Positions 2,852-64,000 of a stretch of DNA of 64,000 nucleotides are shown here, one piece after another; position 1 is the stretch's first letter; each line of letters opens with the position of its first letter. Made by a program: the position numbers and the translations under genes. The notes under the pieces were generated by a model. That model ran no database searches and was not told the DNA's origin. It saw only the letters and a list, made by a program, of their open reading frames with translations. The stretch is from Polyangiaceae bacterium (GTDB lineage Bacteria > Myxococcota_A > Polyangia > Polyangiales > Polyangiaceae): positions 2,604,001 through 2,668,000 of the forward strand of contig JABTUA010000001.1 in the NCBI GenBank assembly GCA_015075635.1, in the 5' to 3' direction.

Positions 2852-3641
2852 TCCCGAAAACAGCGGGAAACGAGCTGGTTCCGTCGTACAACCGAACGGT
2901 GGTAAGACAACGAGAAGTCGTACGACAGCCCGAAACCGTAGAACGACGGGCGATCCCCAGCGTGCCGTCGCCTACATCCGCGTGAGCAAGGAGGAGCAGC
3001 ACATCGGGCCGCAAGCTCAGCGCGACGCGATCGAAGCGTGGGCCGCTCGGGAAGGTGTAGATGTCGTCGGCTGGCATCTTGACCAGGGGTTCACCGGGAA
3101 GCTCCCGCCGGGCAAACGACCAGCTCTTGCAGACGCGCTGGCCGCTCTGCACGAGCACCAGGCCGGTGTTCTCGTCGTGGCCAAACGAGACCGGCTGGCC
3201 AGGGACGTCTTGGTCGCCGGCTACCTGGAGATGAAGGTCAGGCAAGCCGGCGCACGGATCGTGTCAGTTGCTGGCGAAGGCACCGGCGACGACTCACCGA
3301 CCGACCGCCTCATGCGCCAGATCATCGACGCCTTTGCCGAGTACGAGCGGCAGATCATCGCCGCTCGAACTCGCGCAGCGCTCCAGGCGAAGAAGGCCCG
3401 TGGTGAACGAGCTGGCAACTTGCCCTGGGGCTATCGCGCCGACGATAACGGCAAGCTCGTGGAGGACGTCGATGAGCAGCTCGTGATCGCGCGCATTCGC
3501 GACCTGCGCGACGAGGGTGTGAGCATCCGTGGAGTCGTCCAGTGCTTGGCCGAAGAAGGCTACCGATCGCGGGTCGGGAGGCCGCTCACTCAGGGGACGG
3601 TCTGGAACATCCTGTGCGCGCTCGCCGGTCGCGTTGCGTAG
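2844..3641 (+). CDS. Serine site-specific recombinase (resolvase family)
   Basis: The 265-residue product has the resolvase catalytic domain from about residue 35: AVAYIRVSKEEQ with the nucleophilic Ser, QRDAI, and the arginine motif KRDRLARD near residue 115. The E-helix region FAEYERQIIAARTR follows. A C-terminal helix-turn-helix-like segment (about 215-262) reads EGVSIRGVVQCLAEEG. It cuts and rejoins DNA through a 5'-phosphoserine link. Its size is that of small resolvases or invertases, not large phage integrases. Start ATG 2844 overlaps the RepA-like gene's end. It probably resolves or moves the accessory segment. No attachment site pair could be identified. Confidence 0.85.
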   Translation: MFDPENSGKRAGSVVQPNGGKTTRSRTTARNRRTTGDPQRAVAYIRVSKEEQHIGPQAQRDAIEAWAAREGVDVVGWHLDQGFTGKLPPGKRPALADALAALHEHQAGVLVVAKRDRLARDVLVAGYLEMKVRQAGARIVSVAGEGTGDDSPTDRLMRQIIDAFAEYERQIIAARTRAALQAKKARGERAGNLPWGYRADDNGKLVEDVDEQLVIARIRDLRDEGVSIRGVVQCLAEEGYRSRVGRPLTQGTVWNILCALAGRVA

Positions 3642-28048: not shown

Positions 28049-28149
28049 CCGGCACAAGTGCGAATCCCGGCGGCGCCGGGCGCCGGCCGTGTCTCAGTGC
28101 GGAAGAGTCGCCCGAGGCCACAGCCGGCGTCGGAGAGAGAAAGAAACCC

Positions 28150-57748: not shown

Positions 57749-57931
57749 TTTCAAAGCGCCCCTTTCTTGGGCGAACGCCCGCTGCGTGCGGGTCAACGCC
57801 GATTGCGAGCGCCATTACCCCTTCAGCCTCGGTTCCTGATCGCGACACGCTCTTGGGTCGCGCGCACGAGTCGAAGATGAAGTCAGGCGCTGCAGCCGGA
57901 GAAAATTTGCGGCTCTTGGACTGACCCGCGC

Positions 57932-58201
57932 TCACTTGCGCAGGTTCAGCGAGGACACGACCTTGCGATAGCGATCGACGTTCGACTGCTTGAGGTAGTC
58001 GAGCAGGCGACGACGCTGGCCGACGAGCATGAGCAGACCACGACGGCTGTGGTGGTCCTTCTTGTGGGTCTTGAAGTGCTCCGTGAGCTGCTCGATGCGC
58101 TGGCTCAAGAGGGCGATCTGCACCTCGGGGGAGCCGGTGTCCGAATCGTGGAGCCGGAAGTTGGTGATGACGCGCGTTTTCGCGCCGGGCTCTAGCGGCA
58201 T
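57932..58201 (-). CDS. rpsO: 30S ribosomal protein S15
   Basis: 89 residues, normal length. It carries the conserved [24 protein letters not shown] and LLDYLKQSN blocks. It binds 16S rRNA early in assembly. GAGGAAAGG precedes ATG by about 6 bases. It is upstream of pnp with a 183-base gap. In other bacteria S15 represses its own translation through its leader; a specific leader structure was not identified here. Confidence 0.96.
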
Positions 58202-58367
58202 GACGACCTTTCCTCTGGATTAAAGTCCGCGGAGTATACGCGCGAAGATCGGCCGGTCAACGGGATCGCGGGCCAGGGCAAAAGCGCGGGAAAAACGCCA
58301 AAATGGCCGGAGCCCGGCTCGGCCGAGGCCGCCCGGGCTCCGCGGGGGCCCAACGGGCCCGGGGACG

Positions 58368-58937
58368 TCACTTGCCTTCGACCACGTGGCAGCCGCCGCA
58401 GCCGAAGCCTTCCTTGGTCTCCGGGTTGAAGGCGGGGACTCCGAGCGCCGCGGCCATCTCGCCGGTCACCTTCTCCATCATGAACTTGGTGATCTTCTCG
58501 TGCTTCTTCAGGTGCTTGGCGAAGCCGTTGGTGCGGTCGAGCTTCGGGAGCTTGGCGTTCGGCATCTTGAACTTGCCCTCCTTGGCGCCAGGCCCGTGGC
58601 AGGTTCCGCAGTTCACGTCGGCGAACTTCTTGCCGTCGAACTCCTTGAGCAGCGCGCCCAGCTTCGGCACGACGACGCTCTTCATGTGCTCCTTCTTCTG
58701 CTCGTCGTTCATGTCCTTCCAGGCGGCCTTGGCGGGCTCTTCCGGCTTCTTCTCCTCGGGCTTTGCCTCCTCGGGCTTCGCCTCCTCCGGCTTGGGCTCC
58801 TCGGGCGCAGCCGTCTCCGCCGGCGCGGGCTCCGTGCCGCCGGCCTCGGGCGGCGGGGTCGCTCCGCCACAAGCCACTGCCAAACCCACTGCTCCGGCCA
58901 TCGCGGCCACCACGAAGCTTCCGTGAACGAAACGCAT
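58368..58937 (-). CDS. Diheme c-type cytochrome lipoprotein
   Basis: 189 residues. The leader ends in LAVACGG (lipobox), followed by a Glu/Pro/Lys-rich linker (about 45-70). Two heme-binding CxxCH motifs are seen: CGTCH (110-114) and CGGCH (180-184), the second near the very end. This is small for a diheme cytochrome. It probably carries electrons at the outer membrane; partners are not in the window. GGAGG precedes the start. Confidence 0.85.
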   Translation of the reverse strand: MRFVHGSFVVAAMAGAVGLAVACGGATPPPEAGGTEPAPAETAAPEEPKPEEAKPEEAKPEEKKPEEPAKAAWKDMNDEQKKEHMKSVVVPKLGALLKEFDGKKFADVNCGTCHGPGAKEGKFKMPNAKLPKLDRTNGFAKHLKKHEKITKFMMEKVTGEMAAALGVPAFNPETKEGFGCGGCHVVEGK

Positions 58938-59058
58938 GCTCTCTGACCTCCGAGCGGGCTTTTCCCAAGGCCCCGCAACGTTGGCAAGACAAACCTGCCG
59001 GTCCGGACCGGCCCAAGGACGCGCGAGCAGGCTCTCGGGACGCCGGGCGCGTCGGAGC

Positions 59059-59877
59059 TCAGCTCGCGCCGTTGTCGCGGCGCAGCGACTCGAGCGAGGC
59101 GCGGTACTCCGCCGCCACCCGCGACGACGCGAAGGGCTCGGGTGCGACGTTGGACAGCGCCGCGAGCACCTTCCAGACCACGCCGGGCACGTGCAGGTAC
59201 TTGCGCTGGCGGAAACCCTCGAGCCCAGAGCGAGCACAGCGGTCCACCGGCATGAGCCAGCTCCTGAGCGAGTTGAAGCGCTCGCCTTCGGTCATCTCCG
59301 TGGCGATCCCGCCCGGCGCGAAGGTGGTGATGGAGACGTTCTTACCCTGGAGCTCGTGGTACAGGCTGCAGCCGTAGTGCACCAGGAACGCCTTCGTGCC
59401 CGAATACGCGGCCTGGTAGGGCACCGGTGAGAGCCCGGCCATGCTCGACACCAGCATCACCCCCCCGCCCTCGTTCTGCTTCTCCAGATAGGGCAAGAGG
59501 TGGGTGGTGAAGCGCACCACGCTAGTCACATTGGTCGAGAGCATGCGCGAGAAGCCATCCCAGCCGAGCTCGTGCCAGTCCCCGAAGTGGGTGATGCCGG
59601 CGTTCAAGACGGCGCCGTAGAGCGGCTCGCCCTGGGTCGCAGCCTCGCACACGCGATCGACGTCGTCGGTCTTCTGCAGGTCCGCCGTCAACGTCAGCAC
59701 CTTCACGCCGGTGGGCTCGAGCTCCTGCTTGAGCGCCTGGAGGCGGTCCCCGCGCCGCGCCACGGCGAGGATGTTCGCGCCGTGGTCCCGCGCGAGCTGC
59801 CGAGCCATCTCCTGCCCCAGCCCGGAAGAGGCGCCCGTCACCAGCACCCAGCGACCCCGAAAGTCCATCGGCTTCAT
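59059..59877 (-). CDS. Short-chain dehydrogenase/reductase
   Basis: 272 residues. Cofactor motif TGASSGLG, the NAG motif, catalytic Ser in VSSMAG and YSGTK (Tyr/Lys) are intact. It reduces or oxidises a carbonyl/alcohol with NAD(P)H; the substrate cannot be told. A C-terminal helical tail (RSGLEGFRQRKYLHVPG) resembles the fatty-acyl-type SDR group. ATG 59877 is used; an ATG at 59868 is an alternative. Upstream is the tandem-repeat block. Confidence 0.9.
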   Translation of the reverse strand: MKPMDFRGRWVLVTGASSGLGQEMARQLARDHGANILAVARRGDRLQALKQELEPTGVKVLTLTADLQKTDDVDRVCEAATQGEPLYGAVLNAGITHFGDWHELGWDGFSRMLSTNVTSVVRFTTHLLPYLEKQNEGGGVMLVSSMAGLSPVPYQAAYSGTKAFLVHYGCSLYHELQGKNVSITTFAPGGIATEMTEGERFNSLRSWLMPVDRCARSGLEGFRQRKYLHVPGVVWKVLAALSNVAPEPFASSRVAAEYRASLESLRRDNGAS

Positions 59878-59928
59878 GGGGGCGGGACTTAGCATTTCTT
59901 TTGTTTGCGCTCCGCTGAAGACCCGGGC

Positions 59929-60468
59929 GCCTCGCGACCCTTCCCACCGGACGAACAGCCGGCGCCCGGATTCGCCGGGTTTTCTCCCTCCGCTCACTCT
60001 GGCGGATCGTGATCTGATCTTGCCAAGACCCAGGACGTGGTGGCGGGCTCGGCCTCTGGCCTCGTGTTCGCTCCGCGGGGTACCCCAACCGCCTCGCGAC
60101 TTTTCCCACCGGACGAATAGCCGGCGCCCGGATTCGCCGGGTTTTCTCCCTCCGCTCACTCTGGCGGATCGTGATCTGATCTTGCCAAGACCCAGGACGT
60201 GGTGGCGGGCTCGGCCTCTGGCCTCCGTTCGCTCCGCGGGGTACCCCAACCGCCTCGCGACCCTTCCCACCGGACGAATAGCCGGCGCCCGGATTCGCCG
60301 GGTTTTCTCCCTCCGCTCACTCTGGCGGATCGTGATCTGATCTTGCCAAGACCCAGGACGTGGTGGCGGGCTCGGCCTCTGGCCTCGCGTTCGCTCCGCG
60401 GGGTACCCCAACCGCCTCGCGACTTTTCCCACCGGACGAATAGCCGGCGCCCGGATTCGCCGGGTTTC
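59929..60468. repeat. Three and a third copies of a 162-bp tandem repeat
   Basis: Units begin at 59929, 60091, 60252 and 60414 (period 162/161/162); the fourth is cut off at about 60468. They are near identical. Each contains the short palindrome gccggcgcccggattcgccgg followed by tttt, a stem-loop with T-run. Confidence 0.93.
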
Positions 60469-60660
60469 TCACGCGGGGACTCTTCTCGCGTCCGCTCACC
60501 CCCGCGACGTCTGGCGTCACTTCCGCACGGTCGAAACAGCCGGCGCCCGGATTCGCCGGGTTTTCTCACGCGGGGACTCTTCTCGCGTCCGCTCACCCCC
60601 GCGACGTCTGGCGTCACTTCCGCACGGTCGAAACAGCCGGCGCCCGGATTCGCCGGGTTT
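60443..60660. repeat. Two copies of a 97-bp tandem repeat joined to the same palindrome
   Basis: After copy four, the palindrome recurs at 60539 and 60636 (spacing 96 and 97). The filler between them differs from the 162-bp unit (cgcggggactcttctcgcg). The palindrome is thus the shared part of both repeat types, six copies in total (59958, 60120, 60281, 60443, 60539, 60636). Confidence 0.9.
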
Positions 60661-60737
60661 TCTCACTCTCCTCTCCTTGGCAGATCGTGATCTGATCTTG
60701 CCAAGACCCAGGACGTGGTGGCGGGCTCGGCCTCTGG

Positions 60738-61120
60738 CCTCGCGTCTTCCCCCGGAGGCCTCGCGTCTTCCCCGCGTCTTCCCCCGGAGGCCTCGCGTCT
60801 TCCCCCGGAGGCCTCGCGTCTTCCCCGCGTCTTCCCCCGGAGGCCACGCGTCTTCCCCCGGAGGCCTCGCGTCTTCCCCCGGAGGCCTCGCGTCTTCCCC
60901 CGGGGGCCTCGCGTCTTCCCCCGGAGGCCTCGCGTCTTCCCCCGGAGGCCTCGCGTCTTCCCCCGGAGGCCTCGCGTCTTCCCCCGGAGGCCTCGCGTCT
61001 TCCCCCGGAGGCCTGGCGTCTTCCCCCGGAGGCCTGGCGTCTTCCCCCGGAGGCCTGGCGTCTTCCCCCGGAGGCCTCGCGTCTTCCCCCGGAAGCGTCG
61101 CGTCTTCCCCCGGAAGCCTC
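60738..61120. repeat. 21-bp minisatellite, about 19 copies
   Basis: Unit cctcgcgtcttcccccggagg recurs from 60738, with two shortened copies (by 12 bases, cgcgtcttccccgcg) and a few one-base variants (cctggcg, ccacgcg, ggaag). It leaves open frames on both strands (for example ASSPGGL), which are artefacts of the repeat, not genes. Confidence 0.92.
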
Positions 61121-61198
61121 GCGCTTCGCGCCTGAGCCCCTCACGGCCTTCCCCCTTCCGCGCCTGGCTCTGAAGCCCGAGCCCTGCCCGCCTGCCGC

Positions 61199-63010
61199 CT
61201 AGAACCTGGCCTGCATCGCCAGCCCGTAGCCCACGAAGTTCGGGCTGATGAAGCTGCGCAGGAGCACCGTGCCGCTCGGATCGAGCTCGAGCCGGGTCAT
61301 GTTGTTGTCGCGGCGGAACTGCATCCAGCCGATGGCGCTCATCATCGGGGAGATGTCCCACTTGAGGCTGCCGCGTGCCTGCAAGATGGGCACGCGCTTC
61401 TCGCCCGCGGGCAGGAAGGCCAGGTTGCCCTGCTCGCGGACCACGATGGTGCGCGAGGTGTCCTGACCGAACAGGTCCACGCTCTCGCTGCGGAAGGTGG
61501 CAGGATTCTGCAGCCCAGCGCCGAAGCCCGGGGTCAGGTGCAGGCTCTCGATGAAGTAGTCCACCGAGGCGGCGAAGAAGGTCTCGTTCTCGGTCTTGGC
61601 CGCGTTCGGCAAGGTCTGGAACGGGATGAAGCTCGGTTGGTTGCGCAGCACGAAGGGCAGATCGCGGTAGATGGCCGAGAGGCTGGTGCGCAGGTAGCCG
61701 AACTTGATGTTGGCCTGCACCGCCGCGGCCCGCGCCAGCTGGATGTCGGTCGCGCCGGGCACGTCGAAGTCCTTCAGGTTCTGGTGCAGCTGCGTGGCCT
61801 CCGCGGAGAGCGCCCACGAGAGCTTGCCCGGCTCGTACTTCTCCTGCTTGAACTGCTCGAGCGGCGCGTTCGGATCGTTGCGGTAGAGCAGGAAGTCCGC
61901 CGAACGCGGCACGGCCATGTCCTGGTGCAGCACCGCGCGGCCGGAGAAGCCGTAGGTGAAGACGCGCTTTCCGAGCACGTCCGGATCTTCGAAGCGCCCC
62001 TGCTGGAAGTAGCCGGCGCCCACGTCCACGTGGAGCATCTCAGCCACGTCAGCGCCCGCGCCACCCAGGAAGCCGTAGTTCGTCTCGGCGACGCGCACCG
62101 TGTCCGTGGTCGAGCCTTCGCCGGACCCGCCCTCCACGATCCGCTGCTGCACCTCGATGATGCTGGCGGTCTTGAAGCCGCCGAAGGCGTACCAGCCCTT
62201 GCCGTCGTACTGCAGCTTGGCGCCCGGCGCGCTGGCCTGCAGGCGCGGGAAGATCGACTGGTTGAGGCGGCCGTTCGTGCCGCCCCAGGTGATGTCGTAC
62301 AGGTAGCCGAGCCGGAAACGATCCGTGTCGATGGGATACAGCGTGAGGCCGAGGCCCTGCGGGTTCTTCGCGTCTCCGCCGGTGCCGTAGAAGACGCGCA
62401 GGTAGGTGCCGGCGTCCTCGAGCACGCGGTTCACGTTGTTCGACTGCGATGCCAGCTCGGTCATGTTGACACGCATCACCAGCGCGGCCTCGGTGTCCAC
62501 GTTCTCGGCGAAGCCAGGCAGTCGGCTGTAGAGCACCAGGTGCGAGACGTTCTCGCGACCGGAGAAGCGCGAGTTCAAGTTGTCGAAGAACAGGCGGTAC
62601 TGCGGCCGATCGCCGACGCTGGCGTTGGGCGAGAGCGGGAAGGCCTCGCCGGTCTTGTGCAGGAAGTCGTCGTCGCCGAAGGTCCAGGTCAGACGCGTGT
62701 CCACGAAGGGCGAGTAGGCCTGCGCGCGCGGCCCAGCGCCGGGCTTGGGCTTGTCCGGCTCCGCCTTGGCCGCCGCCGGCTCGGGCTTGACCTCGGGCGC
62801 CGCCGGCGCCGTCGCCTGCCGGGCCGGTTGCTCCGGCTTCTTCTCCGCCTCCGGCGCTTCCTCGAGTTTCACGTCCTCCGGCTTCACCGGCGGATCGCCT
62901 TCGGGCTTGGGCTCGGGAGCCGGCTGGGCGCGCAGGGTCCCGGTCAGCGAAAGCGCTGCCGCGAGCCAGAGCGTCGTCCGGAGCTCAGTTCGATGCTTCA
63001 TTCGGGTCAT
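61199..63010 (-). CDS. Outer-membrane beta-barrel protein of unknown function
   Basis: 603 residues. The N-terminus is a signal peptide (MTRMKHRTELRTTLWLAAALSLTGTLRAQ), then a Pro/Glu/Lys-rich periplasmic linker to about residue 95. The rest has alternating aromatic beta-strand patterns (RLTWTFGDDDFL, YRLFFDNLNSRF, FRLGYLYDITWG) and ends in Phe (MQARF), typical of outer-membrane barrels. It is larger than porins of 16 strands; function is unknown. ATG 63010 follows AAGGAC; ATG 63001 is an alternative. It overlaps the gene at 62985 by about 25 bases, so the two are co-transcribed. Confidence 0.78.
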   Translation of the reverse strand: MTRMKHRTELRTTLWLAAALSLTGTLRAQPAPEPKPEGDPPVKPEDVKLEEAPEAEKKPEQPARQATAPAAPEVKPEPAAAKAEPDKPKPGAGPRAQAYSPFVDTRLTWTFGDDDFLHKTGEAFPLSPNASVGDRPQYRLFFDNLNSRFSGRENVSHLVLYSRLPGFAENVDTEAALVMRVNMTELASQSNNVNRVLEDAGTYLRVFYGTGGDAKNPQGLGLTLYPIDTDRFRLGYLYDITWGGTNGRLNQSIFPRLQASAPGAKLQYDGKGWYAFGGFKTASIIEVQQRIVEGGSGEGSTTDTVRVAETNYGFLGGAGADVAEMLHVDVGAGYFQQGRFEDPDVLGKRVFTYGFSGRAVLHQDMAVPRSADFLLYRNDPNAPLEQFKQEKYEPGKLSWALSAEATQLHQNLKDFDVPGATDIQLARAAAVQANIKFGYLRTSLSAIYRDLPFVLRNQPSFIPFQTLPNAAKTENETFFAASVDYFIESLHLTPGFGAGLQNPATFRSESVDLFGQDTSRTIVVREQGNLAFLPAGEKRVPILQARGSLKWDISPMMSAIGWMQFRRDNNMTRLELDPSGTVLLRSFISPNFVGYGLAMQARF

Positions 63011-64000
63011 CCGTCGTCCTTGGGGAAACACACGCGATCTGCGAGCTCACGGGAGCCTTGGGGCCGTCTGCGCAGGCCTTCTGCGACATCTCGCTGCACA
63101 CCAGGTCGTCGCCGCAGCGGGCTTCGATGGTCCAGTTGAGATCGCCACCGCTGAAGTTGCGGAGCGTCCCGCTGAGCGAGGTGATGGGCTTGCCGCGCAT
63201 GCTCACCGGGTCGAAGCCCGGGATGCTGCGCGTGTTGATCTGGATGCTCTTCGGGCCCGGCAGCACCACGCGGTAATTGCCGCGCGAGACGAAGCCCGTC
63301 CACTCCACGCAGTTCGGCTCGGCACCGCACGCGTTGGCGCAAGCAGCCTCGCAGGAGCCCTTGGTGTCGAAGTCGATGAAGCCGGAGCCGTCCAGATCGC
63401 AGCTCGAAGCCGCGTCGCTGAAGATGACGGGGGGCGGGGTCGCGCAGTCGTTCTGCCCGGGAGCGAGGGCGACCTCGGGAGGGTTGGGCCCGAAGAAGGC
63501 GCCGACGGTCACGTTCTCGACCCGCACCAGCGCGCTCTCGATCTTCTCCATCAGCCCGGCGTCTTCCGTGGCGTCCGGCGCGATCACGGTGGGCTCGGGC
63601 ACGCGACAGGGTCCGTCGCCGGGGTCGGTCGGCGTCGGGAAGCGCCAGGCGTGGCGCTCGAACGAGGGGAACGACAGCTCCGTGAAGCCGAAGAACTCGA
63701 CGGCGGTGCCGGTGAGCTTGGTGATGCGATCGCACACCCGTAGGAAGGGCGGCGTGTTGAAGGTGAAGGCGAAGATGTGGTTGTAGCCGAGCGTGTCGCT
63801 CAGATCCGTCGCGTAGAAACCGTCCGCGGCGATGCGCGTCACGATCAGCTCGGCGGGGAGGTCGGTCTTGACCTCCACCGACTCGAGCTCGTACGGGCTG
63901 GTCGCGCCGCGACCCTGCACGTCCCCGAGCCGGGGCAGCTCGAAGCGCACCGGCTGCGAGACGCCCGCTGCGAAGGTGCCGGGACCCTCGGAGTCGTCGT
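62985..64000 (-). CDS. Secreted Cys-containing protein of unknown function (5' truncated by window edge)
   Basis: The frame is open without a stop to the right edge, so the start lies beyond 64000. The visible 338 residues are beta-rich with several Cys near the C-terminal half (CEAACANACGAEPNC). No domain is recognised; the DLDGSGFIDFD stretch resembles a calcium-binding EF-hand-like loop. It ends inside the barrel protein gene by about 25 bases, so the products likely act together at the surface. Confidence 0.6.
   Translation of the reverse strand, partial: DDSEGPGTFAAGVSQPVRFELPRLGDVQGRGATSPYELESVEVKTDLPAELIVTRIAADGFYATDLSDTLGYNHIFAFTFNTPPFLRVCDRITKLTGTAVEFFGFTELSFPSFERHAWRFPTPTDPGDGPCRVPEPTVIAPDATEDAGLMEKIESALVRVENVTVGAFFGPNPPEVALAPGQNDCATPPPVIFSDAASSCDLDGSGFIDFDTKGSCEAACANACGAEPNCVEWTGFVSRGNYRVVLPGPKSIQINTRSIPGFDPVSMRGKPITSLSGTLRNFSGGDLNWTIEARCGDDLVCSEMSQKACADGPKAPVSSQIACVSPRTTDDPNEASN

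Follow-up and report, generated by a model that had tools for sequence, protein, structure and literature searches.

A tandem-repeat block in a Polyangiaceae genome as a probable relic of a dispersed non-autonomous mobile element family

The nested tandem-repeat block described here is likely to be the relic of a member of a MITE/REPIN-like family of non-autonomous transposable elements in Polyangiaceae, one that has no terminal repeats and was multiplied locally. It occupies positions 59907-61127 of the analysed stretch of DNA (64,000 nucleotides, hereafter the window), inside contig C1 of its own genome (G000; 9.47 Mb, 5 contigs). It is a real and orderly structure, and probably a relic of mobile DNA rather than a control switch.

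Architecture of the block

The block is composed of three full copies of an element of about 160 bp, two truncated copies and one more full copy, which together carry six stems, and of a minisatellite of 19 units. These features, their neighbours and a second family member in the window are as follows (bit scores refer to the R1 model described below).

28054..28138, - strand: second family member in the window, R1 38.2 bits; internal-deletion derivative without the GATC core
59059..59877, - strand: SDR gene (PF00106, E 1e-41); predicted start 30 nt from the block
59907..60067, + strand: full copy 1 of the dispersed element, 161.5 bits
59959..59978, + strand: stem H1, CCGGCGCCCGGATTCGCCGG, the first of six exact copies over 20 nt, repeated from 60121, 60282, 60444, 60540 and 60637
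60005..60032, + strand: conserved core segment GATCGTGATCTGATCTTGCCAAGACCCA of copy 1; the core is also present in copies 2, 3 and 6
60068..60228, + strand: full copy 2, 145.6 bits (148.1 bits if the bounds are 2 nt longer)
60229..60390, + strand: full copy 3, 156.5 bits
60391..60478, + strand: truncated copy 4, 59.2 bits; 5' half and stem, without the conserved GATCGTGATC core
60487..60573, + strand: truncated copy 5, 51 bits; second 5'-half lineage, without the core
60584..60745, + strand: full copy 6, 150.8 bits; second 5'-half lineage with the common 3' half, a mosaic identity pattern
60741..61127, + strand: minisatellite, 19 units of a 21-bp sequence, twice spaced at 11 bp
61128..61198, + strand: tail rich in CCTGAG/GGCTCTGA; by eye it resembles the 3' flank of copies L056 and L023
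61199..62887, - strand: flanking gene, 3' end facing the block; no Pfam hit at E ≤ 1e-10

Tandem Repeats Finder reports a 162-bp unit in 3.3 copies (59928-60467, 97% match, score 1031), a 97-bp unit in 2.3 copies (60442-60666, 99%, score 443) and a 21-bp unit in 14.4 copies (60826-61127, 96%, score 541), together with an irregular 21/11-bp stretch at 60741-60858; by direct counting, the 19 minisatellite units give 18 spacings, 16 of 21 nt and 2 of 11 nt. The array start at 60741 falls inside the last bases of copy 6, which ends at 60745. An earlier note on this DNA had counted 162-bp, 97-bp and 21-bp repeats and six copies of a palindrome, and these counts are borne out, the palindromes being identical over 20 nt. 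Its 162-bp and 97-bp units are not separate repeats: one dispersed element, in full and in 3'-truncated form, accounts for both. Its SDR neighbour is likewise recovered; its "barrel" protein finds no counterpart in Pfam at the threshold given above.

The mosaic expansion suggested in the same note is supported by the identities between copies. The 5' halves of copies 1-3 are 65-69% identical to that of copy 6 and the 3' halves 91-92%, while copy 1 matches copies 2-3 at 76-80% in the 5' half and at 98-99% in the 3' half. The 5' half of copy 4 is identical to that of copy 2, and the 5' half of copy 5 to that of copy 6. The family member at 28054-28138 lies, by eye, directly behind an apparent TGA stop.

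A dispersed family in one branch of Polyangiaceae

A BLAST search of G000 with positions 59900-60770 (the block minus most of the 21-bp array) yields at least 67 matches, mostly at 70-86% identity at other places (40 of 116 candidates scored). The R1 model, built from a 23-sequence alignment (A1), gives at least 140 matches in the 9.47-Mb genome at E ≤ 0.001, a floor because 150 of 18437 first-look candidates were scored. In the genome search proposed earlier for the palindrome, the element that bears it recurs genome-wide; for the 21-bp unit, no place elsewhere in G000 is among the matches listed, those to the array end all lying inside the block (block query, 40 of 116 BLAST candidates scored).

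Of the 140 matches, 94 were examined, in 85 groups; the other 46 comprise 36 matches below 41.9 bits and, from L009, L010 and the window, 10 partial tandem copies. Overlap with a predicted gene exceeds 40 nt at only two of the 94 positions (L057 and L104). The elements are therefore short, non-coding and dispersed in many copies (at least 140 matches), in agreement with the definition of MITEs. At L020:3314-4435, two copies 959 bp apart share equal score, length and aligned letters, possibly representing a segmental duplication.

Among relatives, R1 matches are found in 4 of 39 genomes, the own genome included, and an order-level search with stricter filters gives matches in 10 of 183. Under stricter filters, R2, a cross-genus model of the 90-nt core, gives matches in 13 genomes out of 108 in the family (in three of these, one weak match each) and in 9 out of 377 in the phylum. 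Five of the latter score only 28-30 bits; these five, outside G000, G001, G002 and G022, are probably chance. The core pattern occurs in 13 stretches across a collection of 84,980 species genomes, each in a record titled as a Polyangiaceae or Myxococcales MAG, and no occurrence was found in viral contigs. Convincing matches are confined to one branch of Polyangiaceae. Rfam covariance models give 0 matches at E ≤ 1 in window positions 57800-63200. No report on the repeat itself appears among the matches listed from the open-licence literature, and a term search of a MITE review (PMC10969869) finds none of CTAG, stop codon and Myxo.

Subfamilies, inverted ends and the conserved core

Classes set by pattern divide the 85 groups of G000 into 36 of a TIR type, 7 of a second type, 3 of a third type and 39 of type A, a remainder class that includes the window block and takes in apparent decayed members of other types (e.g., L049, L089 and L107). 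The TIR type has ends like CTAGGGGGTGTCCCTAATTC...GAACTAGGGACACCCCCTAG, starting at CTAG or a variant of it, and a 15-nt part of this end, at up to two mismatches, gives 64 matches vs 3 for a reversed control pattern. Two TIR copies, L050 and L051, are apparently identical across 163 nt. The second type carries other short ends in at least one copy, L106 (TCTGACTCGGCTTTCGCT against TCAGACTCGACTTTCGCT). The median inverted-repeat score is 18 in type A (window included) vs 25.5 in the TIR type, and type-A copies, the window block too, lack clear terminal inverted repeats.

The core also occurs in G145, which belongs to a related genus: an inverted pair of cores is present in 8 of 13 fetched regions (six of the 8 had been preselected as pairs from the match list), a weak partner in 1 and a single core in 4. 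The conserved cores of about 90 bp stand head-to-head in these pairs and form the ends of foldback elements of about 300 bp; in the six preselected pairs the arms measure 88-115 nt and face each other across a spacer. One of the G145 elements, L215, has CTAG at both outer ends, and other pairs have TAG or CTCGA-type sequences. By sequence, G145 therefore contains the inverted doublets that characterize REPINs; none was seen among the 94 matches examined in G000. The core segment GATCGTGATCTGATCTTGCCAAGACCCA of the window matches a portion of the long terminal inverted repeat of G145. The inverted pairs suggest that the core is such a repeat, and its most plausible reading is as a transposon end. 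The protein-binding sites proposed in the earlier note would fit if the protein were a transposase acting on this core.

Some copies contain additional DNA. At L090:2927-4765 (G000 C1:1222626-1224464), a 1669-nt insert splits one element copy inside the conserved GGAT/CGTGATC segment and contains an IS110-family transposase gene (PF02371, E 2.7e-24), a single case which suggests that an IS110-family IS may target the repeat. Extra segments related by eye (CACCC..CGGGT..CTTCC..GGTCGTC), incomplete in some copies, occupy the stem 1 loop of seven copies (L078, L079, L080, L083, L084, L087 and L094) and the middle part of the GATC segment of three (L075, L085 and L089), which looks like insertion of a single small module at two places.

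Position relative to genes and stop codons

Copies are located mainly at the 3' ends of genes. With genes called by the author's own codon-usage script, 46 of the 85 groups lie in convergent gaps, 28 in codirectional gaps in sense, 10 in codirectional gaps in antisense and 1 in a divergent gap. The resulting sense bias in codirectional gaps (28 same/same vs 10 opposite/opposite, p 0.005) holds for all types together and is not significant within either main type alone (p 0.065 and 0.093). Judged by distance, the stop of the upstream gene is at the left end in 29 of 36 TIR copies, a convergent stop is at the right end in 20 of 36, and both are present in 16 of 36.

CTAG is rare in 529 kb of element-holding loci, with 221 observed vs 1470 expected from base composition, and 88 of the 221 are at elements. 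The 133 element-free CTAGs comprise 20 at a stop codon, 50 in coding sequence and 63 at other intergenic places; target rarity alone therefore does not explain why 29 of 36 TIR copies are at stops. The host genes looked of all kinds by eye (ten of their proteins were run against Pfam), and a shared-regulon reading was rejected on this ground.

Gain, loss and persistence among relatives

The argG site is filled in G000 and empty in G001, and is also empty in G002 as judged by match coordinates; the empty site in G001 shows no clean single CTAG, the flanks being too diverged. In the record behind L119, which is probably G002, the element is absent from the sites of L078 and L016; this record also has an element at a place where, in G000, a gap of about 50 nt contains none. 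The lysC site of G001 contains what is, by eye, a degenerate copy belonging to a different type.

At each of three sites an element persists in two congeners: rpsG-fusA and an AMP-binding enzyme gene in G000 and G001, and a sigma-70 gene in G000 and G002. The gene at the latter site had been considered as topA, an assignment that is ruled out. A search for S7 in 60 genomes gave a hit in 56, and of the 30 S7 loci of the family that were fetched and scanned, only those of G000 and G001 match the element convincingly. The idea that conservation at rpsG-fusA proves a function was rejected on this result.

Tandem arrays at element borders

Of the 39 type-A groups, 17 have a tandem array no more than 150 nt from the 3' end, compared with 2 of 36 TIR-type groups and 5 of 111 control intergenic regions; the excess of type A over controls is strong (Fisher p 5e-8). 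At the 5' end, arrays are present in 9 of 39 type-A and 2 of 36 TIR-type groups, and the two small types together have 1 (3') and 0 (5') in 10. Most of the 5' repeats are truncated versions of the 5' part of the element itself, often ending, by eye, at or directly after the stem. The 3' units vary by locus (e.g., 21, 24, 26, 33, 42 and 6 nt) and at some loci take in the last bases of the element. Arrays and mosaic halves alike fit a putative process of slippage and recombination at the G+C-rich stem. At L015, the intergenic DNA reaching as far as about 500 nt beyond the element (3135-3295, - strand) on its 3' side reads like a putative RNase P RNA.

Stem pairing and terminator-like properties

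A terminator-like scan of the block finds 6 sites vs a shuffled mean of 1.3, and 5 of the 6 are the stem. Across 35 aligned sequences from 9 genomes, pairing of the stem is kept in 92% of cells, and only one of its pairs is compensatory. The second stem (GATC...GATC) has no pair changed on both sides and is unpaired at one pair in 10 of the 35 sequences. For both stems together the covariation score is 0.086 vs 0.075 for the structure slid by 3 columns, and 230 of 500 shuffles reach the observed count of pairs changed on both sides. Folding of three segments in 86 of the 94 copies, those with a recognizable core, gives mean z values of -0.55, -0.79 and -0.46, barely below shuffles, and RNAalifold predicts 9 pairs with 1 covarying from 23 sequences and 4 pairs with 0 covarying from 29. 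A structured-RNA reading was rejected on the basis of these few pairs, the near-shuffle z values and the absence of double changes in the second stem.

Conservation is strongest in the GATC segment, beyond the stem. The array-bearing 3' flanks have a C>G skew of 0.175 (n 17) vs 0.010 in codirectional control gaps (n 56). The T-tailed strand in the window is antisense to both adjacent genes, which makes a terminator role of the block there unlikely. The earlier suggestion of repeated terminators is weakly supported: stem pairing and the short T run speak for it, the covariation control, the fold energies and the antisense placement against it.

Origin of the block

It is proposed that a putative transposase would bind the core of about 90 bp as a transposon end and insert the element at CTAG-like sites, thereby spreading the family. 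Such targets are rare in the genome, and the copies that survive are found at the 3' ends of genes, in many cases with a stop codon bordering the element, so that the genes would stay intact. Some copies would then lose their ends. In these end-less copies the G+C-rich stem could be a point of polymerase slippage or of unequal recombination, which would multiply full and 3'-truncated units, swap halves between variants and expand 3'-border sequence into locus-specific minisatellites. This sequence of events is favoured by the dispersion of the family, the inverted-end subfamilies, the position at stop codons, the core pairs of G145, the empty sites, the mosaic and the 3' arrays. The failure to find a transposase with matching ends in G000 (DDE_3, and 12 of 14 DDE_Tnp_1 matches inspected), the type-A ends without inverted repeats and the argG site without a clean CTAG count against it, and neither the three element sites kept in congeners nor the codirectional sense bias is predicted by pure mobility.

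Those two features would be more natural if the family were a conserved 3'-end RNA element under selection (a terminator, Rho loading site or mRNA stabilizer, like E. coli REP/BIME) and the block a multiplied terminator. The location at gene 3' ends, the stem followed by T-rich sequence with its five terminator-like sites, the 92% pairing with its compensatory pair and the C>G skew of the 3' flanks are also in line with such a role; however, the fold energies are near those of shuffles, the common structure is slight, the slid control nearly equals the true structure in covariation, the window element is antisense to both genes and, of the 30 S7 loci scanned, only those of G000 and G001 keep a convincing element. 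Moreover, the best-conserved GATC segment lies past the stem, where a terminator would already have stopped transcription, and this explanation is considered unlikely. A related proposal, to which a low probability is also assigned, holds that the family homes to gene stops, recognizing the rare CTAG and landing between tail-to-tail genes that both keep their stop, while the end of about 90 bp is kept at some sites as a sense 3'-end signal and end-less copies generate locus-specific minisatellites; it rests on the 29 of 36 TIR copies at an upstream stop and 16 of 36 at both, vs 20 of 133 element-free CTAGs. Passive growth by slippage of unremarkable intergenic sequence, with no mobile family, would account for locus-specific units and for 3'-truncated repeats sharing one start border, but it is disfavoured by the genome-wide copies, which stand at 85 separate places among the matches examined, as well as by inverted-repeat ends and empty sites, and is very improbable. 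Least probable of all is a collapsed or mis-joined repeat: the block is repeat-rich, as such an artefact would be, but it sits inside contig C1 of a 5-contig genome, and other loci show a comparable architecture built from different units.

Known systems and implications

REP sequences are far shorter than the core of about 90 bp in this family. By analogy, the closest precedents for the family appear to be REPINs and the BrickBuilt MITE. According to PMC3116915, REPINs and REP sequences are likewise non-autonomous and extragenic and occur as inverted doublets able to form hairpins (cf. G145), as singlets (cf. G000) and in tandem arrays, whereas one subfamily here has separate CTAG-bounded terminal repeats. 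BrickBuilt, as characterized in PMC4596501, is an intergenic, non-coding element of Porphyromonas gingivalis with small inverted-repeat ends and 19 copies in one genome, and has a tandem array of a 23-nt unit that grows or shrinks from one strain to another. The present family shares the intergenic, non-coding nature, the inverted-repeat ends and the tandem array; BrickBuilt differs in its unrelated host, in having one 23-nt unit rather than locus-specific units, in placing the array between leader and tail, where here it adjoins the 3' border of the core and duplicated 5' halves lie upstream, and in lying 49-591 nt from coding sequences (PMC4596501), whereas the TIR type often abuts a stop.

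If the preferred explanation as a mobile-DNA relic is true, the family would exemplify a bacterial mobile element that settles at harmless tail-to-tail junctions, with stop codons at its borders, and whose copies lose their ends and then grow new minisatellites locally. The family would also be a lineage marker for part of Polyangiaceae, and its covariance model could be used to annotate unnamed intergenic repeats in large Polyangiaceae genomes.

Candidate mobilizers

IS630/Tc1 and IS5-type MITEs insert at TA or CTAG-like sites. The present family resembles them in its CTAG-like ends, short inverted terminal repeats and non-coding nature; it differs in that no DDE_3 gene, as a candidate IS630-type mobilizer, is found in G000. 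DDE_Tnp_1 has 14 matches in G000, 12 of them with loci that were inspected, and around these 12 no convincing pair of known ends was found; at L181 and L189, DDE_Tnp_1 is flanked on either side by matches to an 11-nt end at two mismatches. The absent mobilizer is the main gap in the mobile-relic reading. Three DDE_Tnp_1 matches have equal score and frame length (C2:1165307-1165930, C2:2888249-2888872 and C2:503059-503682), and two of these G000 C2 matches lie within about 0.4 and 1.3 kb of a family element; the three are a possible lead to the mobilizer.
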